A stretch of DNA of 64,000 nucleotides. Source: Pseudomonas alcaligenes. GTDB lineage: Bacteria > Pseudomonadota > Gammaproteobacteria > Pseudomonadales > Pseudomonadaceae. The notes below the pieces were generated by a model, which worked only from the letters and a program-made list of their open reading frames with translations, ran no database searches and was not told the DNA's origin. A program made the translations under genes and the position numbers. How positions within the stretch are numbered: the stretch's first letter is position 1; every line of letters begins with the position of its first letter. Shown piece after piece: positions 27,016 through 63,353 of this stretch. The stretch is taken from contig NZ_LZEU01000001.1 of the NCBI RefSeq assembly GCF_014490745.1, forward strand, positions 2,259,501-2,323,500, in the 5' to 3' direction.

Positions 27016-27491
27016 CGAGATTGGCTTTCATCAATATTTAACGTGCAGGGATGTGAAAGTGGGACTTTGAAGAAAGTGGGACTATTCCGTTTTTAAAAGT
27101 TTTGCAATATTGAGGCTCATTTCTATTCCAATTCCCTCTTAAACTCACCTCTATTTCGTTCCGTTGAGCGCTGCATTATCTCGATCACTTCTATATCTCA
27201 GCGCGTAATGAAAGTCCCACATTTCCCTCTGGAAGACAACTTGGATCTCGACGAGATCTGGAAGGTAGTTTGGAACTCTTGAGGGTTCCCTTCCGATAAC
27301 CGTTGGGCTAGAGCTCTTTGTTGAAAAAATCGCTTCCTCGTCAGAATTATACTTGGTCCGGTTTGCTCAAGTCCTGTCCAGTCTCGATAGCGCATATTGC
27401 GATTAACATGGGAGTAAAATTTCAAAAAGATATTACGCGCCCAGAATTCTGGACCTTAATTGATTCATAACCTGATCACAGGGAATGGATC
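27016..27491. other. AT-rich non-coding end region of the island
   Basis: No convincing gene is seen in this 476-base stretch. It holds the repeated GAAAGTGGGACT motifs described separately, then AT-rich DNA that should contain the promoter for the four transposition genes. A 75-codon open frame on the minus strand (27198-27425) lacks any protein-like character. Confidence 0.6.
27052..27220. repeat. Putative Tn7-type transposon end with transposase-binding repeats
   Basis: The sequence starts TGTGAAAGTGGGACTTTG. GAAAGTGGGACT occurs at 27055-27066 and again at 27072-27083, spaced 17 bases. A third copy in reverse orientation (AAAGTCCCAC, 27211-27220) lies further in. A TGT terminus plus several ~12-bp repeats in varied spacing is the usual layout for TnsB/TniA binding sites at Tn7- and Tn5053-type ends. 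The matching far end was not found in the window. Confidence 0.6.
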
Positions 27492-28106
27492 ATGCCAGCG
27501 CTTGGGCTAGAACCTACCGTAGTAAAGAGAAAGAAGGGGCAGAACGAGTATCTGATTTGGAGCGCCAAGGCTGGCGCAGCCCTAACTTTGTACGAAAAAT
27601 CCCACGTCCTATATCTCCTCCGCCAAGAATTTAGTCCCCACGTGACAGCATTGAGCGGAGAGGCCTTTCAGTTGAAGACCCCTTATGGGACAGCTGTTAT
27701 GCCCATTTCTGCGAGTCTTGGAGACCAACTGAAGTTAGCCATATTTGACTCTCCTCAATTGGTAGTGCAGCAGGTGGCCGCTCTTTGCGAGCAAAGAGGA
27801 TGGATCTTGGATGTCATCACCACCTCACAACATACGGACTCCAGCCACGAATTCTGGAATTTGCTCGAGATGCAGCAATGGCTTCTCAGGTGGGGAGGCG
27901 GTGTCCGAGAGAAAGACATTCAGATATTTGCCAGGAGTATGCGTTCAGGCCATTCATTTGCGCTGCAACAGCAATTGTCAAGCGAAGATGCCGTTAATCA
28001 ATTGACAATGATTTATGAGTTGGTGCGGCGAGGGCGACTGGTCCCTCAGGATATTTGTACAAGGCGAATTTGTCAGGACAGTATCTTTTTAGTTCGTGGT
28101 GATTAG
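27492..28106 (+). CDS. TnsA-like transposition protein, apparently lacking nuclease residues
   Basis: 204 residues. The layout follows TnsA: an N-terminal segment with a helix like ESxLERDxLYLLEFDP (here YEKSHVLYLLRQEFSP), then beta strands, a CEQRGWILDVITT strand matching the CAxRGWxxxVVTE block of TnsA, and a C-terminal winged-helix-like stretch (MIYELVRRGRLVPQDI). Where TnsA has the catalytic Asp of YTPDF and the Lys of EVK, this protein reads VMPIS and LAIF, so the PD-(D/E)xK site seems lost. First of four packed genes; 2-base gap to the next. Confidence 0.55.
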   Translation: MPALGLEPTVVKRKKGQNEYLIWSAKAGAALTLYEKSHVLYLLRQEFSPHVTALSGEAFQLKTPYGTAVMPISASLGDQLKLAIFDSPQLVVQQVAALCEQRGWILDVITTSQHTDSSHEFWNLLEMQQWLLRWGGGVREKDIQIFARSMRSGHSFALQQQLSSEDAVNQLTMIYELVRRGRLVPQDICTRRICQDSIFLVRGD

Positions 28107-28108
28107 AA

Positions 28109-29977
28109 ATGACCCAAGCGCGATTTTCGATATCGGAGCTTAGAGACTCCGGTCTTGATATTGATAGTTGGCCAGAGCCAGAGACAAGCGCGCTGTCGGC
28201 TAAAGAAAGAGGTCTAGTCGATAAGAAGATTGCTGCCGTTAAATCTTATTTCAAGGATGGCCTTACACTTTTTGAAGTCAGGAATAAATACGGAATTACC
28301 AAAAGCACCTTGTACAGATTGATTGAGCGTGGTCAACGCATCGTCGATGGCCAACCCCTCGGATTCTTGGGTGCTATGCCATATATACGGACTAGACCGC
28401 GCAAGGATTTAGAAAATAAACTAACTGACAAAGGCAAAGAAAATAAGAGTGGAATTTTTTCAAGATTACTAAACACGTACCCATCATTGAGCGAAGAGCT
28501 CTCTAGCTTGGTAGAGATTTATAGAAAAAAACAAAAAAGAATTTCGGATCTTCATCAGTCGTTTCTAGACGCCTGCCGAGATCAGGGCGTTGGGGATAAG
28601 GACTACCCATTCAGCGAAGCCGACCTCGCTAGGCGGACATTTGAAACGCATCTCAAAGCTAAATATAGGGAACGTCAGGCGGAGATTGAGCTTGAGAGTG
28701 CAAGCAGAATTTCTGAAAGGATTGAGCCAACCGAAGCGCTTGATGAAGTAGAAGTAGACGGCCATCAAATAGATCTTCGATTAGTTATAGAGGATTATGA
28801 CCTCTATGGAGAGCCGGTTAGATATGAGATTCTTCGCGTATGGCTAATCCTAGTTATTGATGTATTTACTAGATGCGTATTGGGATACAGCATCGCTTTA
28901 GGGAAAAACTACGACCAGCAGGATGTTCTCTCAGCTATCTTCAATGCCTTGGCGCCGCACAGCAGACCAAAAGCAGTTATCACGAATGCATTATACGAAC
29001 AAAGTGGTGGTTTTCCCTCTGAGCGCGGAGATGAATTTGCGTGGGCCACATGGCGGTGTATCAAGCTGGACAATGCACTTTCGCATAAAGCTATTCGGGT
29101 AAAGGAAATACTCGATAAGAAGGTGGGGTGTTTAGTTGATTACGGTCCGCCTCATCAGCCAAACGCGCGCAGTATAGTTGAGCGATTCTTTAGGTTCATA
29201 GCAGATAATTTCTCTCATCGACTGATTGGAACTACCGGCTCAAGCGTTAAAGATCCAGTTAGAGAGGCGTTATCGCCATCCTCCAACTCTGGACTATCGC
29301 TGTTAATGACACTAGACGAACTCCGACACGGTATCGATATCGTTCTATCAGATTATAACGGACGACCTCATTCTGGTGTATTTGGAAATTCGCCTTTAGA
29401 GCTTTTTACCTCGCGGCTCGCGAGGAGGCAACTCTTGATCGGGAAGCTCAAGCCTGAGGATCGCAACGAATACGACTTCATGAAAAGAGTTCAGATTGCG
29501 ACGGTTCGATCTTCGAGCAAAGAGACAGGGGCGTATATTAATTTTGCCAATGTAAAGTACAAAGACCCCCTGATTCTAAGAAGTGATCTAACCGGTCGAA
29601 AAATTCAAATCACGTACGATGTTAGGGATATTTCCCATGTTCGCGCTTATACGATGGATGGCAAATTTATTGGTCCGCTTAAAGCGAGTGGACCATGGGG
29701 CAGGGAGCAACACTCTCTGCAGCTCCGGCAGACATTATTCAAGGCGTTCCGAGACCGAGCTATAAGATTCAAAGTCGGGCAAAGTTTATTGGATGCTTGC
29801 AATCAACTACGTAATCGGACCGGAAGGAGTCTGACGACGAATACTGCTCATTACGAAATAATTCAATCACTTAAGACGCAGGAAAAATCTGGGCCTGATA
29901 AATCTATGTCGGCGGACATTAAGCCACTTGTTAAAGAAGCTGTGGCTATGCCTTTAACCAAAATCTTTGTTTCCTAG
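28109..29977 (+). CDS. TnsB/TniA-type DDE transposase
   Basis: 622 residues. N-terminal helix-turn-helix segments (FEVRNKYGITKSTLYRLIERG) are followed by an integrase (rve) core with the DDE triad: Asp217 (EVEVDGHQID), Asp321 (IKLDNALSH) and Glu358 (NARSIVERFFRF). A C-terminal beta-rich domain of Mu-transposase type follows (about 460-540). This is the transposase that binds the element ends and joins 3' ends to target. It is part of a four-gene set with TnsA-like, TnsC-like and TniQ-like proteins. Confidence 0.9.
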   Translation: MTQARFSISELRDSGLDIDSWPEPETSALSAKERGLVDKKIAAVKSYFKDGLTLFEVRNKYGITKSTLYRLIERGQRIVDGQPLGFLGAMPYIRTRPRKDLENKLTDKGKENKSGIFSRLLNTYPSLSEELSSLVEIYRKKQKRISDLHQSFLDACRDQGVGDKDYPFSEADLARRTFETHLKAKYRERQAEIELESASRISERIEPTEALDEVEVDGHQIDLRLVIEDYDLYGEPVRYEILRVWLILVIDVFTRCVLGYSIALGKNYDQQDVLSAIFNALAPHSRPKAVITNALYEQSGGFPSERGDEFAWATWRCIKLDNALSHKAIRVKEILDKKVGCLVDYGPPHQPNARSIVERFFRFIADNFSHRLIGTTGSSVKDPVREALSPSSNSGLSLLMTLDELRHGIDIVLSDYNGRPHSGVFGNSPLELFTSRLARRQLLIGKLKPEDRNEYDFMKRVQIATVRSSSKETGAYINFANVKYKDPLILRSDLTGRKIQITYDVRDISHVRAYTMDGKFIGPLKASGPWGREQHSLQLRQTLFKAFRDRAIRFKVGQSLLDACNQLRNRTGRSLTTNTAHYEIIQSLKTQEKSGPDKSMSADIKPLVKEAVAMPLTKIFVS

Positions 29978-29986
29978 GGGGTGCTA

Positions 29987-30973
29987 ATGAACATTGCTGA
30001 TCTGCCTCCTGCAGATATTGATATGGAAGATCACCCAATCAATACCGAGCGCTATTTAATACCTACTCAGCCTATCGGTAGGTTAATGGCTGTATTGGAG
30101 AAGATTGTACGCCGCCGAACGTCTGGATTACTCATACATGGCCGGCCTCGCTATGGTAAATCCAAGGCGATCAAATACTGCTCAAATGCAATAAAGGATA
30201 TATTCCCTGGGCTTCCTGTATGTATATTCAGTGCACCAGAAAAAATGACCGCTTCCGAGGATGCTTTTTACTCGCAGTTATTACAAGCGCTAGGCCATAA
30301 ACAGTTAGGCGGAAAGCCGCACGAAAAGCGCCAGCGCATTCTGAATCTTATCTATGAGCGCTCGTGTCGGTATAAGAGGAGGATGTTCCTTCTTTTTATC
30401 GACGAGGCTCAAAAATTTTTCGACAAGCACTTTGAGTGGCTCAGAGATATCTATGATAATTTGGAGCTACATTTTGAGGTGCGACTGGTTGTGGTTCTTG
30501 TAGGTCAGCCAGAACTCGTCATTGTAAAAGAGCAGTTTCTTAGTGCGCGTAAGCAGTCAATTATTGCGCGCTTCATGATTCAGGATATGGAGTTTCAAGG
30601 GCTCAGCTCGGCTCAAGAAGTTGCAGAGTGTCTAGGCTGCTATGATGCAGCCGTGTATCCAGCGGACACAGATTGGACTTTCACCAGGATATTTTTCCCA
30701 AAAGCATTCGCCAACGGCTTTAGGCTGGGCAACTATGGGCAGCAGTTTTGGCGTATTTTTGGATTGCATCATAATGAGCATGGTCAGATTAGTGACCTAA
30801 GCATTCCAATGAGATTCTTTACGAAGACTATCGAGATATTTTTCACTGAGTATAAGCATCTAGATGATATAAGTTTTTTGTTAACAGATGAGCTAATCAA
30901 TGAGGTGATTTCAGAGACTTGGTACTACCTTTATCAGAAGGATGTTCGGCAAATGGACTATTTAGATAGCTGA
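29987..30973 (+). CDS. TnsC/TniB-type AAA+ ATPase
   Basis: 328 residues. Walker A HGRPRYGKS (~51-59) and Walker B MFLLFIDEAQKFF (Asp-Glu ~139-140) are visible, with a downstream Arg-rich sensor region (KQSIIARFMIQDMEFQG). TnsC/TniB proteins form ATP-dependent filaments on target DNA and connect the target selector (TniQ) to the transposase. The ATG at 29987 has AGGGGG five bases upstream; the GTG at 29981 is part of that site. The stop shares one base with the next ATG. Confidence 0.88.
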   Translation: MNIADLPPADIDMEDHPINTERYLIPTQPIGRLMAVLEKIVRRRTSGLLIHGRPRYGKSKAIKYCSNAIKDIFPGLPVCIFSAPEKMTASEDAFYSQLLQALGHKQLGGKPHEKRQRILNLIYERSCRYKRRMFLLFIDEAQKFFDKHFEWLRDIYDNLELHFEVRLVVVLVGQPELVIVKEQFLSARKQSIIARFMIQDMEFQGLSSAQEVAECLGCYDAAVYPADTDWTFTRIFFPKAFANGFRLGNYGQQFWRIFGLHHNEHGQISDLSIPMRFFTKTIEIFFTEYKHLDDISFLLTDELINEVISETWYYLYQKDVRQMDYLDS

Positions 30974-32304
30974 TGAAAATTGTTCCTTTTCCTGCATTCA
31001 GTCGCATTTCTGCGAACTGCTCAATCACGCCGCGTCTTGTGGGGTTTGAATCTGCGTATTCTATTCTTAGCAGATTTGCATCTGCCAATGTTGTATCTGG
31101 AGCTGCCGTGGTTGGCATGTTCAAGAACCATAGCGAGAGATTTCGAAGTTATCGTTCTCGCACGAATAACTTATCCAGCTTATATTCAGTAAATATTGGT
31201 GCTTTCGAAAGGGAGCTTAGTTTGGCAAAGAGGGAAGTTTATGACTTGTTTTTAACGCCAAACTACCTGCACGATCACTGGTCATTGTGTGGTTTGCTTC
31301 GATTTTGTCCTTGTTGCATGTCGCAGGGCGTTCACTATGCAGTTTTTCAGTTCGATAAATTAGTTAACTGTCCGATTCATAAGGTGCCGCTTGAGGTGGC
31401 CTGTAGATTTTGCGGCGCCGCAACACCGTACACCTTGAATTCGCAGACATTCAGAACCCCTTTTGGCTGCGCGAGTTGCAAGTGTTCGTTGCTGCAGGGC
31501 GACTATCGCATGTCGAGTTCAGCTCTCCAGGCGGCGAGTGGATTGCCGCTGGAAGTAGAGCGAATTTACAAGACATTCAGCGCCATGGCTGGCAGCCGGC
31601 TTTGCATGCCACTTTTAGGAGCCAGTAGAGTGCGCGCTGGGCAAGTTATTCCGGCGATGCGACTTGAAGTGGACTGTGGCGAAGAAGAGGAGCAATTTTT
31701 CTCAAGTATGGTGAGCGCGCCCATGCCTCATTCCATTCTGCGGTTTGACTTTATTAGTCGAGTCTGCCAAACGGATTTGCCACATCCTCCCGAAGTTGGA
31801 GGCAGCGAGTTCACGTTGCTCGTTGACGAATTGGCATCAGTATTGAAATCGCTCATCCGACACAACTGCTTTGTTGAGCATGTCTCTACAAGAACCGTAG
31901 CATTGGTCTCTGATAACGATCTTATCGAACACACGGTTCAATCTCTTACAAATAGTATCGAAGGGCTCAAAGTCCTGGTGTCGTGGCGAAGGCTGTGGTG
32001 TGTGAACGCCACGTTTCGAGGGCGTGCGGCTATCGGCTACGCGATTTCGTCTTGGTTGGGGCGCTTTTGCCAAGAGAGCCGGACGCTAGCGCTTTCCGCC
32101 AAGGAGCGTTCATGGTTGGCTAAGCATGCTTTTGCCGATGAGGTACTGCACTCGCTAACTGAGTTTCGTCGCAATCGCAAGCTTGACGCAGGGCTCCCCA
32201 TCAGTGACCAGACCGCTTATGTGGCGCCCTGTTGGGCGGTCGAAGTGGATGAGGATGACCCAGAAATTCGCAGGATCAGTTACACGCGCCAGGCGGCTGT
32301 TTGA
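30973..32304 (+). CDS. TniQ/TnsD-type target-selection protein
   Basis: 443 residues. The N-terminal TniQ domain contains the recognisable sequence GFESAYSILSRFA. A zinc-binding block follows, CPCCMSQG...CPIHKVPLEVACRFCG (about 112-150), and then further cysteines (FGCASCKCS). Proteins of this length often recognise a fixed chromosomal attachment site, as TnsD does, or serve as a smaller TniQ adaptor. It overlaps the TnsC-like stop by one base (TGATG). No CRISPR-Cas gene is nearby, so guide-RNA targeting is unlikely here. Confidence 0.82.
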   Translation: MKIVPFPAFSRISANCSITPRLVGFESAYSILSRFASANVVSGAAVVGMFKNHSERFRSYRSRTNNLSSLYSVNIGAFERELSLAKREVYDLFLTPNYLHDHWSLCGLLRFCPCCMSQGVHYAVFQFDKLVNCPIHKVPLEVACRFCGAATPYTLNSQTFRTPFGCASCKCSLLQGDYRMSSSALQAASGLPLEVERIYKTFSAMAGSRLCMPLLGASRVRAGQVIPAMRLEVDCGEEEEQFFSSMVSAPMPHSILRFDFISRVCQTDLPHPPEVGGSEFTLLVDELASVLKSLIRHNCFVEHVSTRTVALVSDNDLIEHTVQSLTNSIEGLKVLVSWRRLWCVNATFRGRAAIGYAISSWLGRFCQESRTLALSAKERSWLAKHAFADEVLHSLTEFRRNRKLDAGLPISDQTAYVAPCWAVEVDEDDPEIRRISYTRQAAV

Positions 32305-32316
32305 CGCTCATAAAAC

Positions 32317-33207
32317 TCAACTTTTGGTTTTCTTTTTTGCACGGCCCGCAGCTTGCCGCTCCAGAAGCTCGCACCGAGTCAGTAGTTCCTGGCGCTGCTG
32401 TTCTGATTGCGCGTAGGCGGTCTGCTGCATGTCCAGCTCAGTCGCCTTGTGGTTTAACTGTTGCTGAAGGGCCCGCTGCTCGCGCAGCTGCTGCTGCGCT
32501 TCGCTTAGCAAGCGGGCGTTGTCGCGATTGAGTTGTGTGAGTTCGTCCTGCTTGATCATTAGAGTCTGTTGCAGCTGGCGTATCTCGGCCTGAAGCTGGC
32601 TAGTCTGGGCTTCATGGCGGCGCTGCTCCTGTTCACGCTGCTCCTTGCTGGCCTGGCGGTAATGCTCCATGCCATCACGAGCGTGCTGATGCATGTTTTC
32701 AAGCGACTGGATGCGCTCATCGCGCTCCCGCACTCGCACCTCCAGATCCTGCAGGGATTGCAGCATTCGGGCGTTATCGACTTCGACGGCTTGTCGCTGT
32801 TGCTGCTCCTGGAGAATCAACTCTTGGGCCGCTTGCAGCTGTAGAGCCAAGCCTGAGTGCTGAGATTCGATGTCTCGCATCCGGGACTCAAGCACGGCTG
32901 ATTGCTGCTGTACTGCAGCGCGCTCGCGTAGGAGCGCTTCATGGGCCTGGGCGACGGATTGCTGAGCCTCTTGCTTCAATTGCTCCAGAAGCTGCTCCAT
33001 GAGATTCGTTAGCGGAGCGCTTAACGCGGCACTGGATGTGGCCTGCTCGCTGGCTTCCAGTTCCTTCAAATAGCGGTGGATGGTGGTCTTGGAGCCGGTG
33101 TTGCCCAGCTCGACACGCACTGCATCAATGCTGGGGTGAATGCCGCGAGCGAGGAGGGCATGCCTGGCTTTCTGCACGACCGCTTTGTTGATTCCACCGC
33201 GGGCCAT
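32317..33207 (-). CDS. tnpT: TnpT-like KfrA-type DNA-binding coiled-coil protein
   Basis: 296 residues from the ATG preceded by AGGAG. An N-terminal KfrA-like DNA-binding domain (about 1-55: ARGGINKAVVQKARHALLAR and then TGSKTTIHRYLKELE) is followed by a very long Gln/Glu-rich coiled coil and a basic tail (AAGRAKKKTKS). A KfrA-like protein divergent from a tyrosine recombinase is the arrangement of tnpT and tnpS in the Tn4651/Tn4652 family, where TnpT assists cointegrate resolution. Its stop lies 12 bases from the TniQ stop, so it is packed against the transposition genes. Confidence 0.78.
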   Translation of the reverse strand: MARGGINKAVVQKARHALLARGIHPSIDAVRVELGNTGSKTTIHRYLKELEASEQATSSAALSAPLTNLMEQLLEQLKQEAQQSVAQAHEALLRERAAVQQQSAVLESRMRDIESQHSGLALQLQAAQELILQEQQQRQAVEVDNARMLQSLQDLEVRVRERDERIQSLENMHQHARDGMEHYRQASKEQREQEQRRHEAQTSQLQAEIRQLQQTLMIKQDELTQLNRDNARLLSEAQQQLREQRALQQQLNHKATELDMQQTAYAQSEQQRQELLTRCELLERQAAGRAKKKTKS

Positions 33208-33235
33208 AAGTGGGTCTCCTGACGATTTCGTTCCG

Positions 33236-33260
33236 TGGTACGTACCATGTAAGTACATGG
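33236..33260. other. Candidate TnpS recombination (resolution) site
   Basis: Two adjoining palindromes lie between tnpT and tnpS: TGGTACGTACCA (33236-33247, perfect) and CCATGTA-AG-TACATGG (33245-33260, 7-bp arms). Inverted arms with a small centre are what a tyrosine recombinase core site looks like, and the resolution site of the Tn4651 family lies between these two genes. The palindromes could also serve as TnpT operators. Confidence 0.55.
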
Positions 33261-33389
33261 CATCTTATCAAAATTTTCCTTTGTGACCCGCTTGTATTCT
33301 AGAATTGAGTAATCACGAATTATCCAAGGTGAAGCGGCGTTTTCGTCGTTTGACGCTCGCTCACCGGTACACCAAGGGGATGTGCTCAG

Positions 33390-34349
33390 ATGAGCCAGGA
33401 GGTTGAGCGGTACCTGCAGGCCGGCACTCGCGCCAACACGCGACGCAGCTACCAGCAGGCGCTTGAGCATTTCGAGGTCACTTGGGGCGGCTTCTTGCCG
33501 GCGACCAGCGATGCCATCGTGCGGTACCTGGTCGACCACGCCGCCACACTGTCCAGCAACACCTTGAAGCTGCGTCTGGCGGCATTGGCGCAGTGGCATG
33601 TCAGTCAGGGCTTTCCGGATCCGACCAAGACCCCTCTGGTCCGCCAGATCTTCAAGGGGATCCGTACCCTGCACCCTCGCCAGGAGAAACAGGCCGAGCC
33701 CTTGCAGCTGCGTCAGCTCGAGCAATGCGTGCTTTGGTTGGAGCGATCCGGTGAGCGTGCACGCGCTGAGGACGATTGGCCGCGACTACTGCGCTGTTGC
33801 CGCGATCGTGCACTGGTCCTGATTGGCTTCTGGCGGGCGTTCCGCAGTGATGAGTTGTGCCGCCTGCAAGTCGAGCACATCCAGGTGCGGGCCGGGGAGG
33901 GGATGCAACTGTTTCTGCCGTGGAGCAAAGGCGACCGCGACAACCAAGGCCAGACCTTCAGCGCGCCGGCGTTGGCCAGGCTGTGCCCAGTACAAGCTTA
34001 CGTCGACTGGATCAGCGTGGCGGGCATCGCGCGTGGGCCGGTATTCCGTGGAATTGATCGCTGGGGGCATTTAGGTGAGCAGGGTTTGCACCCAAATAGC
34101 GTTGTCCCACTCATGCGCGCCGTACTGCAGGCGGCAGGGCTGCCTTCGGAGCTGTACAGTAGCCACTCGCTGCGCCGCGGGTTTGCCACCTGGGCCACCC
34201 GCAGCGGCTGGGATCTCAAAGCGCTGATGCAGTACGTAGGCTGGAGCGATGGCCAATCCGCATTGCGCTATGTGGAGAGCACAGGCGTGTTCCCTGGGCA
34301 GCTGAGTGCGCTACAACACATCTCAAACTGGCCCGAGGGACTGCCATAA
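33390..34349 (+). CDS. tnpS: TnpS-like tyrosine recombinase
   Basis: 319 residues. An N-terminal core-binding domain begins MSQEVERYLQAGTRANTRRS. The catalytic domain shows Arg in WRAFRSDELCRLQVEH, the box SHSLRRGFATWATRSGWD (His-x-x-Arg), a later Trp in YVGWSDGQSALRYVE, and the nucleophile Tyr in ALRYVES. The size and the sequence of blocks match TnpS of the Tn4651 family. It catalyses resolution of cointegrates at the site between tnpS and tnpT. A general phage-type integrase role cannot be fully excluded. Confidence 0.82.
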   Translation: MSQEVERYLQAGTRANTRRSYQQALEHFEVTWGGFLPATSDAIVRYLVDHAATLSSNTLKLRLAALAQWHVSQGFPDPTKTPLVRQIFKGIRTLHPRQEKQAEPLQLRQLEQCVLWLERSGERARAEDDWPRLLRCCRDRALVLIGFWRAFRSDELCRLQVEHIQVRAGEGMQLFLPWSKGDRDNQGQTFSAPALARLCPVQAYVDWISVAGIARGPVFRGIDRWGHLGEQGLHPNSVVPLMRAVLQAAGLPSELYSSHSLRRGFATWATRSGWDLKALMQYVGWSDGQSALRYVESTGVFPGQLSALQHISNWPEGLP

Positions 34350-34377: not shown

Positions 34378-35274
34378 CTAGCTGCGCACTGGGAACACCA
34401 GCTCGTCATGTGCGGTGCAAATGAGTCGATGGTCCAGCACATGGAAAATTGCAGGGTTCTTGACATCCTGGGCACCCACAAAGAAGAGATAACTGCGGGA
34501 TGCCTGCTTATCTTTTTTGGCTTTCATGTTCTCTTGGCGGGCTATTTCCAGCTCATTTTTCAGTCGCCCGCGGGCAGCCGCTGACCACTCGCTCCAGAGG
34601 ACGACCACCTGGTAAGGCGTTAGTTTTTTCTCTTCCCATTCGCCCGCGTTGAGTGAAATGGTCAAGTGTTCGGGCGATTCAGCGGCTGGCGTCCAGGCCA
34701 GTTCCCCATAGAAAATGCGTGCATTAGGGCATGGCTCCAACCCTTTCGACCTAAGTTTCTTGAAGGCGGTTTGATAGGTCGCTGGGGCAATACCCGGGAT
34801 GGCTAAAGAAAGATGCCTATCGAAGGGGAAGCGCAAAAAAGCACGGCAGATAGGGCGAATGCTGTTCGCTGCGCGTCGTCCTTCTCGGCGCACCAGGCCA
34901 GTGGCTCCATCCGACCGCCTGACGCTCTGTGTCTGAGACTCGGTGTGAGGTAGCGCAGGACCGACGATTGTACGGTCTTCAATCAGCTGCAGCCGGGCGG
35001 GCGATAAACCTGGCGAGGTCTCCAACTCCTGCTGAACACTGCCGCGCTTGCCCTGCGCGATAACCTTGGTTTCGCCCTCCACCTCACAACCTGAGACGTG
35101 AGGGTCACGCAGTTGAAAGTGAGCCCGAACCAAGTTCTCCGGGCGATAGGAACGCGGGAAGGCCTGAGTTTTGCAACCAGGGCATTGGTAGCCATAGGTA
35201 TCCACTGCCGCCAGCAGTTTAAGGTCCTCGGCCTCAACAATTTCCTGGGTAATACGATCACGAGCGTTGTCCAT
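34378..35274 (-). CDS. CoiA-like protein with N-terminal zinc motif, function unknown
   Basis: 298 residues. Near the N-terminus YGYQCPGCKTQAFPRSYR, followed by a His and a Cys (VRAHFQLRD...SGC), resembles the zinc-binding start of CoiA-like proteins. The rest has no recognisable catalytic motif; a C-terminal domain contains PYQVVVLWSEWSAAARGRLK. GGAGAC precedes the ATG. It is divergent from the exonuclease gene by 88 bases, so they share a promoter region. I do not recognise a specific function. Confidence 0.6.
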   Translation of the reverse strand: MDNARDRITQEIVEAEDLKLLAAVDTYGYQCPGCKTQAFPRSYRPENLVRAHFQLRDPHVSGCEVEGETKVIAQGKRGSVQQELETSPGLSPARLQLIEDRTIVGPALPHTESQTQSVRRSDGATGLVRREGRRAANSIRPICRAFLRFPFDRHLSLAIPGIAPATYQTAFKKLRSKGLEPCPNARIFYGELAWTPAAESPEHLTISLNAGEWEEKKLTPYQVVVLWSEWSAAARGRLKNELEIARQENMKAKKDKQASRSYLFFVGAQDVKNPAIFHVLDHRLICTAHDELVFPVRS

Positions 35275-35362: not shown

Positions 35363-35911
35363 ATGGTGAGCGATGAGCTTTATGTTTCCGTCGACGTAGA
35401 AACTTCCGGGCCGGTACCGGGCATCTATAGCCTGCTTTCCATCGGCGCTTGCGTCGTCTCAGAGCCCGCTCAGTCAATCTATCTCGAGCTCCAGCCAGAC
35501 GGCCTACAGCACGATCCGGAGGCTGTCGCCGTAACTGGCCTTGACCTCACCAAGCTCGAAAACGAAGGACTAGCCCCACAGACGGCGATGCTCAAGCTGG
35601 AGCAATGGTTGAACCAGCTATGTTCGGCAGATCAGAAAGTCGTTTTCGTGGGGCTGAATGCCCCGTTCGACTGGTCGTTCATCAACTACTACTTCCATAA
35701 GTATTCTGGGGCGAACCCCTTTGGGTTCACCGCACTCGACATGAAGGCGTATTACATGGGGGTTACCGGATGCCGCTGGAAGGAAACTAAATCCTCGCAA
35801 ATGACAGCTCGGCTCAACCCCCAAAGCGCACCCAACCATAACGCGTTGGACGATGCACGATTTCAAGCGGAGCTTTTTGCGCTAATGCTGGCAGAAGGGT
35901 GTAACCGCTAA
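35363..35911 (+). CDS. DEDDh-family 3'-5' exonuclease
   Basis: 182 residues in one RNase H-like fold. The acidic residues are in order: Asp11 and Glu13 (VSVDVETSGPVPG), Asp in NAPFDWSFINYYF, and the His/Asp pair in NHNALDDARFQAE. The fold is that of RNase T, oligoribonuclease and DnaQ epsilon. AAGGGGTG precedes the ATG. It converges on cap3 of the CBASS operon with a 4-base overlap, so it may be a defence accessory nuclease. Substrate (RNA or DNA) unknown. Confidence 0.85.
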   Translation: MVSDELYVSVDVETSGPVPGIYSLLSIGACVVSEPAQSIYLELQPDGLQHDPEAVAVTGLDLTKLENEGLAPQTAMLKLEQWLNQLCSADQKVVFVGLNAPFDWSFINYYFHKYSGANPFGFTALDMKAYYMGVTGCRWKETKSSQMTARLNPQSAPNHNALDDARFQAELFALMLAEGCNR

Positions 35912-36399
35912 CCTGGCCAGCTACCCCATGCAGCTTCTACATAACGCCCCTCCCTGAAGGACCAAGCCTTTATGCCTTCAGGGCTGCCGGAGTTGCCCAC
36001 GATGATTGCCAGCGGGTGCGGCAGATCTTGTGTGTAGCGCGCTGCAAACCTGGAAAAACTTCCGACATCAGTGGGGGAGATCATAGGAATGCTTTGCGGG
36101 TGAGTATGCCAGTACCCCACCAGTCGGAGCCCTGCAGCATTGGCTCGTTCAATTTCATCTCGGCAGCGGTGGGCATTCAACTCCAGCCAAGTTCTTCCAG
36201 CCCGGTCATCTCGATGGGGGGGAGTCGCCAAGGCAAGTACCAGTCCGGTAGCGCTTGCGGGGTCGACAAATAGCTGTCCCCCACGCTCCACATCGAAGCG
36301 CCTCTGCCGATAGCGCTCCAACAGGTTCGCAACGTCCTGCGATACCAACAGATGCGTGTCCACCCCGGGCCAGCTCCATTGCCAGGCGATTGCCGTCAT
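35908..36399 (-). CDS. cap3: Cap3, JAMM-type isopeptidase of type II CBASS
   Basis: 163 residues. The JAMM zinc-protease motif is complete: Glu in VERGGQLFV and the block GYWHTHPQSIPMISPTDVGSF (His-x-His ... Ser-x-x-Asp). In type II CBASS, Cap3 reverses conjugates that Cap2 makes on the CD-NTase. The start at 36399 gives an ATGA overlap with the cap2 stop; a longer frame from 36426 is rejected. Last gene of the operon. Confidence 0.9.
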   Translation of the reverse strand: MTAIAWQWSWPGVDTHLLVSQDVANLLERYRQRRFDVERGGQLFVDPASATGLVLALATPPHRDDRAGRTWLELNAHRCRDEIERANAAGLRLVGYWHTHPQSIPMISPTDVGSFSRFAARYTQDLPHPLAIIVGNSGSPEGIKAWSFREGRYVEAAWGSWPG

Positions 36400-38159
36400 C
36401 GAGCTGTCTCCAAATGCTCCGGCCAATCACGCTCCAACTGAGCCTGCTGCATGCCAGCAGGTAGTTCAGGACCCAGATACTGCCCTCCCAGCGTCGCCAC
36501 GTCGTGGGGGCCATTGATGCTGCTGACCCAGATCGGGGCTCCGGTGCCGCCGCTCAATGCTCGTAATGCGGCCTGAGAGACCATTGAAGCAATGTTCACC
36601 ATTCCCAGAGAACCTCCTGGGATGAAACTCTCTCCGCAGGCGGGAAGGGCGACAACGCCACCTTCCGGCCAATCGGTGAACTTGTGCCTAAATTCACCGT
36701 TTTCTGTGAATAGGCCTCGAGCATCAAATGCACCCGATGGGGCAAGGAGCACATGCCCCACCTGCGTATGAGGTTCGCTCCAGGCCTGGAGTAGACCCCA
36801 GGATGTGCCATTCGACTTGGAGCTCCACAGAGCCACCTCTGACTGCCAATCCGCAGTGGTGACTACGACCAGATCCGCTTTATCAAATACCTCGGGATTC
36901 TGGTACATCACCACTTCAGCGAAGTCTGCGAACGCAGCGACCTCCGTGGTAGGTAGGTCTTTGCGAATTCGCTCCTGAAGCGCTTCGGCCTTGGCCAGGC
37001 CTAGGTCATCGGCCCCGAGTACATGCCTGCCGAGATTCGCCGACACCAAGTAATCCGGGTCAATGAGTGTCAGATGGCCAACACCCGAGCGCGCCAACTG
37101 TAGGGCAACCGTGCCACCCAACGAGCCCACACCAACACAAACTACGCGAGCCGCTTCCAGGTTCTGCGCCATACCGCTGAGGTCACGGGACAAAATCTCT
37201 GTCCGATCCAGCACATCCAGGGTCGTTGCTCGGATCAGAACTGGGGGATGGCTGACTGCAACTGCTGGCCGGCGCCGCGCTGAACGCAGGTAAAACTTTG
37301 ATCCTCGATCCAACTGTGGGCCGTACGCGCGAACGTTAAGGCAGTAGATCGGAGCACCGGCATCTCCCGGAAGCTCCAAAGCGATCCAGCGGTTAGGTAG
37401 CGAGCCACGCTCATTGAACCAAGCCAGCAGCTGCGTGCTGTCGCCAGGAGCAAGGTGTGGAATGAGCCATGTGAGCAGTAACTCCGGGGCCGGAATGCGC
37501 AGGTCCGGATAACTCTGAAGCTTTGCGTAGAAGCCTGGGGTCTCGGGAGCACGCATCCTGGGGGATCTGCCAATCGTGCGTCTGCAGTGCCTTTTCAGCG
37601 ATGACAGATCTGTTGCGAGCCAGACTGTTTCCTGGCCGGACGGCAACGCTTGTCGAGGATCGCTTAGGGCAAACAGCTTCGAGGCAGCTTGGGGGCGATC
37701 CAGAAGAATAAGGTTCTGTTGAGACAGCCCCTGCTGCCTCGACCAGTAGGATGTGATTTCGCGCCGAAATTCGGCATCCCGGGCAGCCACGCATGACCCC
37801 ATTTGGGACAAGCTCACGATCTTGCGTAACCGAGCTAGGCTATCCGACACCACGTATTCAGGGGTGCCCATCACTGGGCGCTCCTGGAAGCCATGCAGAC
37901 AGAGCCCGACTTCCATGGCGTGGGGCCATATAAGCCATGGCGAAGGTTCGACAGTAAGCCTTAATCCGCCGCGGGGGAAACTCCTCGGAAAGCTGATACG
38001 TAGCCGCCGCTCCGTGCCCGTATAGTCGACGGGCAAAGGAAAGTAATAACTCGCAGCTTCGTCTGCTCGTGTGGTTGCAGGCTGAAGCAGTGCAAGTGCG
38101 GCATCTTCGCCAAGAGCGCTTTGCAGCGCGGCTATCCCCCGCTGCAGAGGCGTCTCCAT
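36396..38159 (-). CDS. cap2: Cap2, fused E2-E1 ubiquitin-transfer-like enzyme of type II CBASS
   Basis: 587 residues. The N-terminal E2-like domain has the candidate active cysteine in MEVGLCLHGF (~Cys87). The C-terminal ThiF/E1 domain has the nucleotide loop VGVGSLGGTVALQLARSGVG and the acidic LTLIDPDYL. The candidate adenylation-domain cysteine lies in LPACGESFIPGG. Cap2 links the C-terminal glycine of the CD-NTase to target proteins, priming nucleotide second-messenger synthesis. Start: ATG 38159, just after the CD-NTase stop; TTG codons upstream are possible. Confidence 0.92.
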   Translation of the reverse strand: METPLQRGIAALQSALGEDAALALLQPATTRADEAASYYFPLPVDYTGTERRLRISFPRSFPRGGLRLTVEPSPWLIWPHAMEVGLCLHGFQERPVMGTPEYVVSDSLARLRKIVSLSQMGSCVAARDAEFRREITSYWSRQQGLSQQNLILLDRPQAASKLFALSDPRQALPSGQETVWLATDLSSLKRHCRRTIGRSPRMRAPETPGFYAKLQSYPDLRIPAPELLLTWLIPHLAPGDSTQLLAWFNERGSLPNRWIALELPGDAGAPIYCLNVRAYGPQLDRGSKFYLRSARRRPAVAVSHPPVLIRATTLDVLDRTEILSRDLSGMAQNLEAARVVCVGVGSLGGTVALQLARSGVGHLTLIDPDYLVSANLGRHVLGADDLGLAKAEALQERIRKDLPTTEVAAFADFAEVVMYQNPEVFDKADLVVVTTADWQSEVALWSSKSNGTSWGLLQAWSEPHTQVGHVLLAPSGAFDARGLFTENGEFRHKFTDWPEGGVVALPACGESFIPGGSLGMVNIASMVSQAALRALSGGTGAPIWVSSINGPHDVATLGGQYLGPELPAGMQQAQLERDWPEHLETAR

Positions 38160-38163
38160 CTGA

Positions 38164-39417
38164 TCAACCAAGACGCCCAACTGGCTTCACATCCTCTTGT
38201 GAGTTCGCTGTTCCGCTGACACCGCCAAACAATGCGCCCATCGACGCGAAGTTTCGGGTGGTTCCGTCCGGGCGGCCTGGCATCGTCCAGTTGGACGGAA
38301 TCTCGCCATTCACTGCCGAGATGAAGGCAGGGCCGATGCCAAAGTTTTCCTGAACTGCCTTGGCAAAGGCCTCTGCGGACTCGAAGCTCTCAAGCCCCAT
38401 TGACACGGATGCGCTGGCATTCGAGTGCCAGTCTTGGAACGCCCGGCGGTAGCGATGTCCTTCACTCGGTCTATTCCATTTCTCCGCGAAGTTTTCACCG
38501 CTGTCGGCGGGGTTGCAGACCAAGCATTCGTTCCCGCGGTGTTTGACGTGATCCGGCATCCTCCGGACGATTTCGAGGATCGCGTCCAGCGGCCTTAGCG
38601 GTCTCGACTGAGACTCTTTCGCCACGTCCAGGTAGGCATGAGTGGCGAGTGTAGTGATGACTGCTGAAATAGGCCGGAAGCTCTCATTCTTGGTCCGAAT
38701 GGCCCACTCATCCCGATGCCGCTTCAGCAGCTTGATCGTCGCCCGAAGTGGGTCTTGATCGAGGTACTCCTCATATTGAGGCAACGGATCCTGAGTGGCG
38801 GCATCAAAGGCACGCTGACTTTTCGCGACAGCCAGGTGCTCCTCGAAGGATATCGTCTGGGTAGAAGCGACCTGCAGCCAGTTAGAGTAGGGGATGGGGC
38901 TGCTCGCCTTCCATCCTGTCTCCCGATCTGGCACTTCCAGCTTACCTTCGCCATTGCCCTGAGAGTTCCCATTGATGGCACGCGCTGGCGTGACATCAAT
39001 ATGGAAGCCGGGGTTTTCGTCGGCATAGACGATCCGGATGCCGCGACGCAGCGGTTTGATTTCTTCCTGAACGCGGCTGCCGGCTCTGAATCGCTCTTCG
39101 ATAGCATCCAGAATTGCTTGAGCGCCCGCCCCCTGGGCATGGGGAAGCCAAATGATGGCGTCCGCATCGATGGTGTCCAGATCCTCGGGAGCACCAGAAA
39201 CGGGTTTGATCGTCGTTTTCAGGCGCATGGAGCCCTGAGGAAAAATATGTGCTCCTGCCAGTAGCGGATCGCTGGATGCATTAAGGATCTTCTGCAGCTG
39301 GGAGTATCGATCGCTGATCTTCTCGTACTGTGCTTCCGACAGCGAGATCTCCCGTGCTGCGCGGAGCAGAAAGTGTTCCCAGCTCCCGCGCTTGGTCTGT
39401 TCATTGCTCATGGACAT
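38164..39417 (-). CDS. CBASS CD-NTase (cyclic oligonucleotide synthase)
   Basis: 417 residues. The nucleotidyltransferase core shows the GS helix (AHIFPQGSMRLKTTIKP), the paired aspartates in DTIDADAIIWL and a third acidic residue in GFHIDVTPA. The C-terminus ends PVGRLG, a terminal glycine, which suits Cap2-mediated conjugation. On infection it would make a cyclic di- or trinucleotide that switches on the SAVED effector. The exact clade and product cannot be read here. Start overlaps the upstream effector stop (TGATG); 5-base gap to cap2. Confidence 0.92.
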   Translation of the reverse strand: MSMSNEQTKRGSWEHFLLRAAREISLSEAQYEKISDRYSQLQKILNASSDPLLAGAHIFPQGSMRLKTTIKPVSGAPEDLDTIDADAIIWLPHAQGAGAQAILDAIEERFRAGSRVQEEIKPLRRGIRIVYADENPGFHIDVTPARAINGNSQGNGEGKLEVPDRETGWKASSPIPYSNWLQVASTQTISFEEHLAVAKSQRAFDAATQDPLPQYEEYLDQDPLRATIKLLKRHRDEWAIRTKNESFRPISAVITTLATHAYLDVAKESQSRPLRPLDAILEIVRRMPDHVKHRGNECLVCNPADSGENFAEKWNRPSEGHRYRRAFQDWHSNASASVSMGLESFESAEAFAKAVQENFGIGPAFISAVNGEIPSNWTMPGRPDGTTRNFASMGALFGGVSGTANSQEDVKPVGRLG

Positions 39418-40592
39418 CAGCGGACCTCCTGGGCCTGGTGGCCCAACTGTAGTGTTGGCGTGAACCTGTTTTGGTTGTCTTTGTCTCGATCGAAAATCAG
39501 GTAAGGGTGCCGATGTTGCGTGGTAAGCAAGGCACCGAATTCAATTGCCAACGCAGCTGGGATGGCCGCAAACACATGAATTGTGTCCGCCGTCGTGGCC
39601 TCAAGTCGGCTCAAGTGCATTTGTAGGGCGTCGCGAAAAGCGTGAATCACGCGACGGTTCTGAACCATCGCGTAACTCGGTTCTGGAATGCTTAACTCTG
39701 CGATACGTGCGCCAGGCAGTGCCTCTTCGACGTCGCGAAGCGCGACCTGAGCGGAAATAGACAGCACCAGTGCAAGCGGGCCATCCCCATCCGCTGGAGG
39801 AGTGAACAAAAACTCCGGGGGTTCAGCTGACTGGTCAGGCCAGCGCAGCTGATGCTCGCGGTGGAATGAAAAGAGCAGGCGCTTGGAGCGATCGCCTAAG
39901 GACTGTCCCAGCATCATCAGCGCCGGAATATCTGCCAATCCCACCACGGCCAACGTAGGGGCGTCCCCATAGGCTCCTCCACGACGCCTTAGCTGCTGCT
40001 CTAACTCGTGCTGAACGCTGTCCTGGATGCTCTGCCAGTAGTGGGCATCCCTGCCACGATGACTCGGGGCCGGAAAAGTGATCTTGATGGCATGATCGAA
40101 TGCAGTTAGTCCCTCTGCGGACATCGCAACCAACAGATCACGAACAGGGATGTCGTTGATCGTCGCGAAATGCTGGCTCTGCACAATCACCGGAATGGCT
40201 CTGCCGCCGTCAGGCGTGGTTGCCGCAAGCCGGACTCGCTCCAGATAAGCCTGGTGCAGGCCGCTAAGATCGCTTTCCGGATATCCATCAGCATCGCGAT
40301 CGATTTTGTCATGGCAGCCAGGGCAGAGCAGCATGAGGTTAGCGGTATTGTTGGTGAGCGACTCAGCCTTAGCTTCATCATGATCATCTCGCCCCCTTGG
40401 CCCCTTAGGGCTAGCCGGCAGGATGTGGGCTACCTCGCCCCATTTCATGGGCTTACCTGCACGGTAGTCGTACATGAGGTCGGTGCCGCACAGCTCACAA
40501 TGGCCTGCAGCCTGAGTCCACACGACACGCTTCGTCACGTCGTCGGTGTCATAGCGACCGGTGGCAGCATTGGCTTTTTCTTGTTTTCCCAC
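39417..40592 (-). CDS. cap5: Cap5, HNH-SAVED effector nuclease of CBASS
   Basis: 391 residues. The N-terminal HNH endonuclease (about 20-105) has zinc cysteines in HCELCGTDL and LLCPGCHDKID and the catalytic stretch WGEVAHILPASPKGPRG. A C-terminal SAVED domain (about 150-385) would bind the cyclic nucleotide and drive oligomerisation. When activated, such effectors degrade DNA and kill the cell. GTG start with GGAGG upstream. First gene of the operon, ahead of the CD-NTase, whereas effectors often come last in type II CBASS. Confidence 0.9.
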   Translation of the reverse strand: MGKQEKANAATGRYDTDDVTKRVVWTQAAGHCELCGTDLMYDYRAGKPMKWGEVAHILPASPKGPRGRDDHDEAKAESLTNNTANLMLLCPGCHDKIDRDADGYPESDLSGLHQAYLERVRLAATTPDGGRAIPVIVQSQHFATINDIPVRDLLVAMSAEGLTAFDHAIKITFPAPSHRGRDAHYWQSIQDSVQHELEQQLRRRGGAYGDAPTLAVVGLADIPALMMLGQSLGDRSKRLLFSFHREHQLRWPDQSAEPPEFLFTPPADGDGPLALVLSISAQVALRDVEEALPGARIAELSIPEPSYAMVQNRRVIHAFRDALQMHLSRLEATTADTIHVFAAIPAALAIEFGALLTTQHRHPYLIFDRDKDNQNRFTPTLQLGHQAQEVR

Positions 40593-42874: not shown

Positions 42875-43330
42875 ATGGATGTTCCGATGTCATCTCTCTC
42901 GATACTCGCCCGCAGCGAGCTAATCCGCGAGCGCCTGCTTACCGATGTGGCCGCAGGCCTCCGCATTACTGGCTTTCAATCGCCCGCCGACGATGAAAAG
43001 GAGAGGGGGCTTTCGCTAGATCTCCTGACCGATCTCGGCGCCCCTCACATGTGGCCGGTGCGAGTGTTGGATATGAGCCTGGTGGGGTTCGGCATCTTCC
43101 AAGGTGACAGGCTGGTCATTAACCGTGCAGCGGGCCATGTGGATGACCGCCTGGTGATCGTCGACTTGGGCAGCGAGGGCTACCAGGTGCGCTGGGTCGT
43201 GAAGGATATGTTTGGCGGCCGCTGGTTGCGGGCTGCCGAGTCGCATATTCAAGATGTGCAATTAGATGGTGAGGTGCCTATCGAGGTGTGGGGAGTGGTG
43301 CGCTTCATACTCAGCAAGGTGGCTGAGTGA
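42875..43330 (+). CDS. UmuD/LexA-like (S24) protein without the usual catalytic lysine
   Basis: 151 residues. The candidate cleavage site region reads RITGFQSPADD (Thr32-Gly33), similar to the CG-FPSPAADY site of UmuD. Ser68 lies in LDMSLVGFGIFQGDRLVI, exactly 35 residues after the glycine as in UmuD. Where UmuD has Lys97 (GEFTVKKL) this protein reads GYQVRWVV, that is Arg106. Self-cleavage may therefore be weak or absent. ATG 42875 (or 42887) follows the LexA box; the stop overlaps the umuC-like GTG start. Confidence 0.75.
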   Translation: MDVPMSSLSILARSELIRERLLTDVAAGLRITGFQSPADDEKERGLSLDLLTDLGAPHMWPVRVLDMSLVGFGIFQGDRLVINRAAGHVDDRLVIVDLGSEGYQVRWVVKDMFGGRWLRAAESHIQDVQLDGEVPIEVWGVVRFILSKVAE

Positions 43331-44601
43331 GTACCTCCACACGCGTGTTCGCGTTGGTCGATTGCAATTCTTTCTACTGCAGCTGTGAGCGCATCTGCCA
43401 ACCGCAGCTCAAGCGCCGGCCCGTCGTGGTGCTGTCGAACAACGATGGATGCGTGATTGCTCGCACTTCGGAGGCCAAGGCTCTGGGCATACCTATGGGG
43501 GCGCCGTTTCATGACGTCCGCAAGCTGATACGTGAACATGGTGTCGCTGTCCGGTCCAGCAACTACACGCTCTATGCCGACATCAGCAACCGCGTCATGC
43601 GAGTGATGGCTGACATGCTGCCCGGCATCGAGGTGTATTCCATCGACGAGGCCTGGGGAGACATGACGGGCGTCGAGGACCTGGAGGGACTTGCGTGGAG
43701 CATTCGCCAGCGCCTGGCGCGCGATATAGGCATGCCTGTGGGGGTAGGCATCGGCACTACCAAGACGTTGGCGAAGCTGGCCAATTGGGCCGCGAAAAAG
43801 TGGAGGGGTACCGGCGGTGTGCTCGATCTAACCGATCCGGTTCGCCAGGAAAAACTGCTGCGTCTCGCGCCGGTGAGTGAGGTGTGGGGCGTTGGCCACC
43901 GCTCCGCGGCGAAGCTGGCCGCGTTGAACATTTCTACTGCCTGGGATTTGGCGCAGTTCGATGTCGGTACGCTGCGAAAGACTTTTGGCGTGACCATGGA
44001 GCGTACGGCGCGTGAGCTGCGTGGCGTCAGTTGCATCGGTTTCCACCAGGGGCCTCCACCCAAGCAAGCCATCTGCTCGAGCAAGATGTTTGGAACCCGC
44101 CAAACGGAGCTGCCGCCAATCCGTGAGGCGCTAACCTCGTATGTCACTCGTGCAGCGGAGAAGCTGCGAAAGCAGCAGTCGCTGTGCAGCACTATCCAGG
44201 TTGGCCTGCAGACCCAGCTGGCGGACCTCAAATGTCCTCGTTATGCCAATGCCATCACCCTGGCGCTGCCGGCGCCCACTGACGATACCCGTGAGATTCT
44301 CGCGCTGGCCCAGCGTGGCTTGGGCCAGATCTATCGCCCAGGATTTCCGTTCTCGAAGTGCTCCATCCTGCTGATGGATCTGAGTCAGCGCGGAGAGGTG
44401 ACTGCAGATCTATTCACACCGACCCCGCGCCCAGGTGCCGAAAAACTGATGACAGTGATCGACAGCATCAACGAGCGGGAAGGGCGGGGCGCTGTGCGTT
44501 TTGGCCGAGTGCCGAAGAAACCGAAGTGGGCCATGCGACGCGACATGCTGAGTCAGCGTTATACGACCTGCTGGGATGAGCTGATTGGGGTGCGGGGATG
44601 A
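43327..44601 (+). CDS. umuC: Y-family DNA polymerase V subunit UmuC
   Basis: 424 residues, full length for UmuC/RulB. Motifs: VDCNSFYCSCERICQP at the N-terminus (metal-binding Asp and steric-gate region), YSIDEAWGDMTG (catalytic Asp-Glu), the HhH stretch VWGVGHRSAAKLAAL, and a C-terminal little-finger domain. It performs error-prone lesion bypass after DNA damage. GTG start with a four-base overlap with the UmuD-like gene; the pair is under the LexA box at 42851. Confidence 0.95.
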   Translation: MSTSTRVFALVDCNSFYCSCERICQPQLKRRPVVVLSNNDGCVIARTSEAKALGIPMGAPFHDVRKLIREHGVAVRSSNYTLYADISNRVMRVMADMLPGIEVYSIDEAWGDMTGVEDLEGLAWSIRQRLARDIGMPVGVGIGTTKTLAKLANWAAKKWRGTGGVLDLTDPVRQEKLLRLAPVSEVWGVGHRSAAKLAALNISTAWDLAQFDVGTLRKTFGVTMERTARELRGVSCIGFHQGPPPKQAICSSKMFGTRQTELPPIREALTSYVTRAAEKLRKQQSLCSTIQVGLQTQLADLKCPRYANAITLALPAPTDDTREILALAQRGLGQIYRPGFPFSKCSILLMDLSQRGEVTADLFTPTPRPGAEKLMTVIDSINEREGRGAVRFGRVPKKPKWAMRRDMLSQRYTTCWDELIGVRG

Positions 44602-63229: not shown

Positions 63230-63353
63230 CCTTTGCCCTCCCTGGATTTCTCCCAATCCGAGCTGATGCTGAGCATTTACTGCGTGCCCTTATTTCATAG
63301 CTCGCGCTTCGCTTACTTGCCAAAAATATTGCCCAGAGTCATTTGGCGGGGCA

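Follow-up and report, generated by a model that had tools for sequence, protein, structure and literature searches.

A 57.7-kb Tn7-like transposon beside dif in Pseudomonas, with a TnsA-fold protein lacking catalytic residues and a TnpS/TnpT module

We analysed a stretch of 64,000 nucleotides from Pseudomonas alcaligenes (NCBI RefSeq assembly GCF_014490745.1, contig NZ_LZEU01000001.1, positions 2,259,501 to 2,323,500 of the forward strand), here called the window. A prediction made from the sequence alone had singled out six adjacent genes in it, a Tn7-type set packed against the recombination genes tnpT and tnpS. These genes take up just 7 kb at the left of a transposon of 57,651 bp, which runs from window position 27042 to position 84692 in the same frame, 20.7 kb past the window's end. 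Genomes are numbered G (the window's genome is G000) and loci L, and papers cited by PMC number are drawn on for selected passages. The features are as follows.

27037–27041, no strand: TTTAA, left copy of the 5-bp target-site duplication, from junction reading against two other insertions
27042–27491, plus strand: left end of the transposon, terminus 5'-CGTGC; the copy in G378 is identical from 27042 on
27049–27067, 27212–27230, 27231–27249 and 27260–27278: TnsB-like repeats of the left end, from a repeat scan
27492–28106, plus strand: tnsA-like gene, 204 residues, predicted TnsA fold without the active-site Glu and Asp (AlphaFold, fold search, profile alignment, column counts)
28109–29977, plus strand: tnsB, DDE transposase, 622 residues (Pfam Mu-transpos_C, motifs)
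29981–30973, plus strand: tnsC, AAA+ ATPase, 330 residues (Pfam AAA_22, TniB)
30973–32304, plus strand: tniQ, presumed target selector, 443 residues (Pfam TniQ, PF06527)
32317–33258, minus strand: tnpT, KfrA-type helper, 313 residues (Pfam KfrA_N), divergent from tnpS
33259–33389, no strand: tnpT–tnpS intergenic region, 131 bp, presumed rst (alignment, and position as in Tn4651-group elements, PMC7157771)
33311–33326, plus strand: core AATCACGAATTATCCA, 16 bp, presumed TnpS crossover site (conservation, ancestry changes)
33390–34349, plus strand: tnpS, tyrosine recombinase with R, K, HxxR, W and Y motifs, 319 residues (Pfam Phage_integrase, motif alignment)
34350–64000, no strand: cargo, comprising defence genes, a DNA polymerase of the ImpB/UmuC kind and metal-resistance-like genes; the element continues to 84692
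84693–84697, beyond the window: TTTAA, right copy of the duplication, from junction reading
84768–84792, beyond the window (G000:C1:2344268-2344292): dif, to the right of the element's end at 84692

Open reading frame positions and Pfam matches bear out the predicted arrangement of the six genes, including the 12-base gap between the end of tniQ (32304) and the tnpT stop codon (starting at 32317) and the divergence of tnpT from tnpS. The translation of TnsB has D/D/E-type stretches at 215, 319 and 352, that of TnsC has Walker A and Walker B motifs, and TniQ has three CxxC pairs. TnsB and TnsC are accompanied by a TnsA-fold protein and by TniQ, a gene content that places the element among the Tn7-like transposons. 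TnpS retains its catalytic residues in the motifs AFRSDE, WSKGD, HSLRR, GWSD and RYVE; a single-sequence AlphaFold model of it was discarded (predicted local distance difference test, pLDDT, 38.5). The divergent tyrosine recombinase and KfrA-type helper, with a site between them, are of the Tn4651 kind, as the original prediction held.

The same six-gene order was found in two more Pseudomonas genomes, G378 (Pseudomonas sp. GD04019, L002; TnsB 100% identical) and G054 (MRCP1333, L003; TnsB 89%). The G378 copy is 99.95% identical from window position 27042, where its left flank differs, and the match reaches 84692. The G054 copy has diverged (77.6–92.4% DNA identity in matched blocks) and shares the left gene order and the type of right end. 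Reading of the junctions gave duplications of TTTAA in G000, GCAAT in G378 and AACGC in G054, at different insertion sites, and copy lengths of 57,651, 70,449 and 54,194 bp, respectively. Because bounded copies with duplications of their own exist in all three genomes, we conclude that tnsA-tnsB-tnsC-tniQ and tnpT/tnpS form one mobile unit; the predicted packing of the two gene sets is that of a single transposon with its target-site duplications on the outside.

The matching end repeats that the prediction called for are present at both edges, with four TnsB-like repeats at the right end. When a 124-kb stretch was scanned with a consensus derived from these ends, all six repeat matches of at least 15 of 19 bases fell at the two ends. 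The 5-bp duplication and the TnsB-type repeat arrays at both ends are those of Tn7-like transposons. All three copies end in 5'-CGTGC on one side and in 5'-CTTTC, read on the opposite strand, on the other, instead of the usual 5'-TGT...ACA-3'.

In the copies examined first, the right flanks contain TTTAACATAATATACATTATGCGAA or a one-base variant, which we take to be the Pseudomonas dif site. Neither the right end nor dif figured in the original prediction. The dif site is where chromosome dimers are resolved (definition from PMC10132070). The pattern was found in 28 of the 29 TnsB-positive Pseudomonas genomes, as a single occurrence in 27 of those. In the 21 genomes where a single contig holds both tnsB and dif, dif lies to the right of tnsB in every case and less than 160 kb away in 18. 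All 18 of these have, beside dif, a right end whose 5-bp duplication matches that of the left end, identified by junction reading (G000, G378, G054, G332, G113, G148, G102) or by a scan for the duplication and an inverted end match of 15–22 of 24 bases (G302, G243, G265, G194, G242, G336, G023, G234, G059, G362, G125). Sixteen lie 27–169 bp from the TTTAAC side of dif, counted after the duplication, and those of G362 and G125 lie on the opposite side, 41 and 82 bp away. In controls for 9 of the 11 scanned genomes, 180 shuffles reached at most 16 of 24, with four at 15 or more, and 72 mismatched pairs likewise gave a maximum of 16 and four at 15 or more. With its right end by dif, the element is inserted near the site of a resolution recombinase, as Tn5053/Tn402-like elements are; glmS and comM were rejected as its target, the right flank being dif.

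A relative that lacks TnsA, in G287, also ends beside dif (duplication TACCT, end match 21 of 24), and in G201 no duplication-matched end was found beside dif. L126 (G287) and L166 show a transposase-TniB-TniQ element without TnsA, with tnpS/tnpT and ends of the TGT...ACA type, beside dif. A 216-residue open reading frame upstream of tniA in G287 was considered as a TnsA and rejected, being a TetR-type regulator. Outside the genus, TnsB occurs in 5 of 369 genomes besides G000, and dif was found in four of the five, each time on the tnsB contig. In two of these loci, L170 (G565) and L171 (G591), visual inspection showed repeats close to dif, on the contig that carries tnsB, which are possible transposase sites. 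Because these repeats adjoin dif, targeting of dif may extend beyond Pseudomonas.

The TnsA-like protein has no Pfam match at E <= 0.01 and none at E <= 1, and searches of Pfam, NCBIfam and PDB sequences with the TnsA-like proteins or their profiles gave no identification. Its AlphaFold model, in contrast, indicates that it is a protein of the TnsA fold. In all 35 aligned relatives the TnsA site is without its catalytic Glu and Asp, which sets the element apart from cut-and-paste Tn7 and agrees with the nuclease-dead appearance noted in the original prediction. The ratio of nonsynonymous to synonymous substitution rates (dN/dS) of the gene is 0.14. Elements of the Tn5053/Tn402 type have no TnsA; here a TnsA-fold protein is present.

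The core AATCACGAATTATCCA between tnpT and tnpS is present in eight of nine loci scanned, with one variant allowed. We compared the non-coding flanks to the left and right of the core in 28 other tnpS loci, each with G000. In 22 of them the identities of the two flanks differ by at most 18 percentage points. The remaining six change ancestry at the core, with left and right identities of 35 and 87% (L080), 44 and 90% (L124), 44 and 89% (L125), 25 and 81% (L127 and L128 each) and, in the mirror case L126, 65 and 37%. Since L124/L125 and L127/L128 may represent single events, we count at least four changes. Such changes at a 16-bp core fit site-specific exchange better than homologous recombination, and by this pattern the core looks like the crossover site of TnpS. 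A single-seed local search of the fetched loci, which did not cover the element's cargo past the window, gave no match to a serine resolvase.

Taken together, we consider it probable that the element is a complete Tn7-like transposon, 57.7 kb long, from a Pseudomonas clade, inserting beside dif, moving by copy-out with a dead TnsA as scaffold and resolved by TnpS/TnpT. TnsB would cut and join the 3' ends, while TnsC and TniQ would steer insertion to the neighbourhood of dif, right end towards dif. TnsA would be kept as a structural subunit unable to cut the 5' ends; transposition would therefore be replicative, and TnpS, with TnpT as its helper, would resolve the resulting cointegrate at the core between their genes. 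Tn7-type chemistry without the 5' cut leads through a Shapiro intermediate to a cointegrate (PMC11406308). Insertion at dif, with one end leading and the spacing variable, is akin to the hunting of res sites by Tn5053 and suggests that TniQ/TnsC may sense dif or its complex with XerCD.

Several observations weigh against this reading. The matches to the TnsA fold are modest (template modelling scores 0.43–0.56 by query) with large root-mean-square deviations, and some family members may still have the Lys of the TnsA site. Eight of the 29 TnsB-positive genomes could not be judged for distance to dif, and three of the 21 same-contig genomes (G320, G190, G193) have elements 335–498 kb from dif. 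Because the scan controls reach 16 of 24, the right ends of G265 (15) and G059 (16) are identified chiefly by position and repeats, less by score. Outside the genus, dif lies to the left of tnsB in three of the four genomes. An uninterrupted insertion site was not found among 38 relatives, although dif matched. Furthermore, tnpS/tnpT mostly occurs without Tn7-like genes and is far commoner than the transposon itself: of 398 Pseudomonas genomes, 323 have a match to tnpT–tnpS DNA (E <= 1e-10) and 29 a match to TnsB (E <= 1e-20). The proposal of a distinct lineage defined by TnpS/TnpT finds no support in that form, the pair being swapped among transposons.

A last group of unfavourable findings comes from a survey of 28 loci with a TnsA-like gene, judged by eye on the alignment as intact-looking in six (L080, L083, L084, L087, L088, L089) and degenerate in 22. 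Three kinds of recombinase occur beside the tns genes: the TnpS type, another active type, and an inactive one resembling TnsF. A catalytically complete tyrosine recombinase accompanies TnsA in five of the six intact loci and in 12 of the 22 degenerate ones (the L052 copy is partial at the edge of the stretch); of the other ten degenerate loci, two have recombinase fragments and eight have none within the fetched stretch. The idea that TnsA loss goes together with a recombinase was thus not borne out. At 12 of 22 against five of six, the loss does not predict a recombinase here, which speaks against its simply having brought a resolvase in. The inactive tyrosine-recombinase-like proteins lie beside tns genes in L047–L052, L083, L084 and L087–L089, and are reminiscent of TnsF target selectors.

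The recombinases beside intact TnsA in five of six loci are also an argument for the strongest alternative, in which cut-and-paste persists, driven by leftover TnsA activity or a nuclease of the host, and TnpS/TnpT has been retained for dimer resolution or for exchange of cargo between islands at rst. The exchange between elements seen at rst and the many genomes with tnpS/tnpT and without these tns genes point the same way. Against it stand the missing Glu and Asp in every aligned relative and the position of tnpS/tnpT, or another recombinase, which follows tniQ even where the TnsB proteins have diverged deeply and is found also beside TniA-TniB-TniQ sets that have no TnsA. We regard this alternative as unlikely.

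More doubtful still is the view that tnpS/tnpT and the copper cargo are the remnant of a Tn4651-type transposon of the Tn3 family, beside which the tns genes landed, so that resolution does not serve them. On plasmids (L004, L006, L007), the pair does lie inside a different, Tn3-type element with a Tn3 transposase gene at its far end, which shares with the window element tnpS (95%), part of tnpT, cargo blocks (79–90% DNA identity) and copper cargo. A separate insertion, the outcome that would have counted against the original prediction, is therefore real on these plasmids, but we rejected it for the window element: the G000 element has no match to Tn3 tnpA or tnpC at E <= 1, and the pair lies inside the bounded copies of G000, G378 and G054. 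The pair also adjoins several unrelated tns sets. In G332, G113 and G148 the tns set is divergent (TnsB 43–45% identical) beside a tnpS of 90–97% and a tnpT of 83–85% identity over 248 residues. Between G332 and G000, much cargo DNA and the same tnpS/tnpT are common, whereas both ends and the tns genes differ jointly; we therefore conclude that transposition modules, with their ends, were exchanged around a common island. It is possible that tnpS/tnpT and the cargo came from a Tn4651-type element, from which a lack of function does not follow.

That large islands merely survive best near the replication terminus, closeness to dif not being targeting, is very improbable: distances to dif vary (27–169 bp) and three of 21 elements lie far off, but 18 duplication-matched right ends lie at most about 170 bp from dif, the right end leading in every case, and 16 of them are on the same arm's side.

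Among 20 further tnpS/tnpT loci, two (L124 and L126) adjoin a transposase-TniB-TniQ set, with weak TniQ matches and no TnsA match upstream; the other 18 have no tnsB match in the fetched stretch, some being at contig edges. Many Pseudomonas chromosomes (L131–L138, L140, L141 and others) carry a tnpS/tnpT-like pair in an apparently conserved neighbourhood without tns genes. We see about an even chance that a wider account holds, in which unrelated transposons (Tn3-type, TniABQ-type and several Tn7-like) trade parts at a shared rst site, one cargo island being carried by several transposition machines, jointly with a large Tn7-like clade that would hunt dif through TniQ/TnsC recognition of dif or XerCD-dif, much as Tn5053 senses res with its resolvase bound, and with the dead-scaffold TnsA, copying and TnpS/TnpT resolution of the window's branch.

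The cargo includes CBASS-type (cyclic oligonucleotide-based antiphage signalling system) defence genes at 35363–40592, with strong PADLOC matches: an exonuclease effector, JAB, E1-E2, a nucleotide cyclase and a SAVED-HNH effector. Neither this stretch nor the DNA beyond it, as far as about 45.8 kb, is present in the related plasmid elements. Further defence-like genes are PD-Lambda-4_B (2.9e-78) at 34378–35274 and a candidate PDC-S06 (1.6e-209) at 60626–63256. The G378 copy has a 12.8-kb extra insertion at 43439–43446, with an 8-bp repeat, within the ImpB/UmuC-type polymerase gene (43327–44601).

Replicative Tn7-like transposons with a tyrosine resolvase are not new as a general idea; a 2021 paper already predicted them for branches without tnsA (PMC8649781). 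With Tn7 and those branches the window element shares TnsB, TnsC, TniQ, a TnsA-fold protein, end repeat arrays, 5-bp duplications, a right end towards the target, and defence and metal cargo. It differs in having a TnsA without the catalytic Glu and Asp where that paper describes the absence of tnsA, in its C...G rather than TGT...ACA termini, in the heteromeric TnpS/TnpT and in dif as target; the word Xer is absent from PMC8649781, and a dif site does not occur in the passages covered. Tn5053/Tn402, the res-site hunters, likewise combine a DDE transposase, an AAA+ ATPase and TniQ with a separate resolution system and insert at variable distance near a recombinase's site (PMC11406308). Unlike them, the window element has a TnsA-fold protein, a tyrosine recombinase as presumed resolvase where they have a serine one, and a chromosomal dif instead of a plasmid or transposon res. 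Tn4651-group Tn3 elements have the divergent tnpS and KfrA-type tnpT with a site between (PMC7157771), and their plasmid members have cargo in common with it; the window element has tns genes in place of Tn3-type TnpA/TnpC and ends.

Seeking of dif is known for small insertion sequences (IS) of the IS1202 family (PMC10132070). One of these, ISAjo2, shares a TnsB-like transposase, a 5-bp duplication and a single orientation beside dif; it is a 1.5-kb, single-protein IS that lies 5 bp from the XerC side (PMC10132070), whereas the elements described here are multi-protein. They lie mostly 27–169 bp away on the side of the other arm. Tn6022-like elements with TnsF target comM (PMC10293859). Some relatives of the window element share with them an inactive tyrosine-recombinase-like protein, which was not found in the window element; the terms 'dif site', XerC and XerD are absent from that paper. 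Searches of an open-licence library brought up no description of a Tn7-like transposon next to dif, of a dead TnsA that is conserved or of a Tn7-like element with TnpS/TnpT, and no paper in which TnpS, TnpT and TniQ appear together; two papers contain the terms Tn7-like, dif site and XerC.

If this reading is right, the chromosome's own dimer-resolution site joins the targets of Tn7-like transposons, and a link is made between Tn7, which targets sequences, and Tn5053, which hunts recombinase sites, two families thought of apart. A dead yet conserved TnsA would be a natural separation of the structural from the cutting role of this protein, relevant to engineered transposons associated with CRISPR (clustered regularly interspaced short palindromic repeats). 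Swapping of machinery under a constant cargo of metal-resistance and defence genes becomes directly testable through the ancestry breaks at rst.

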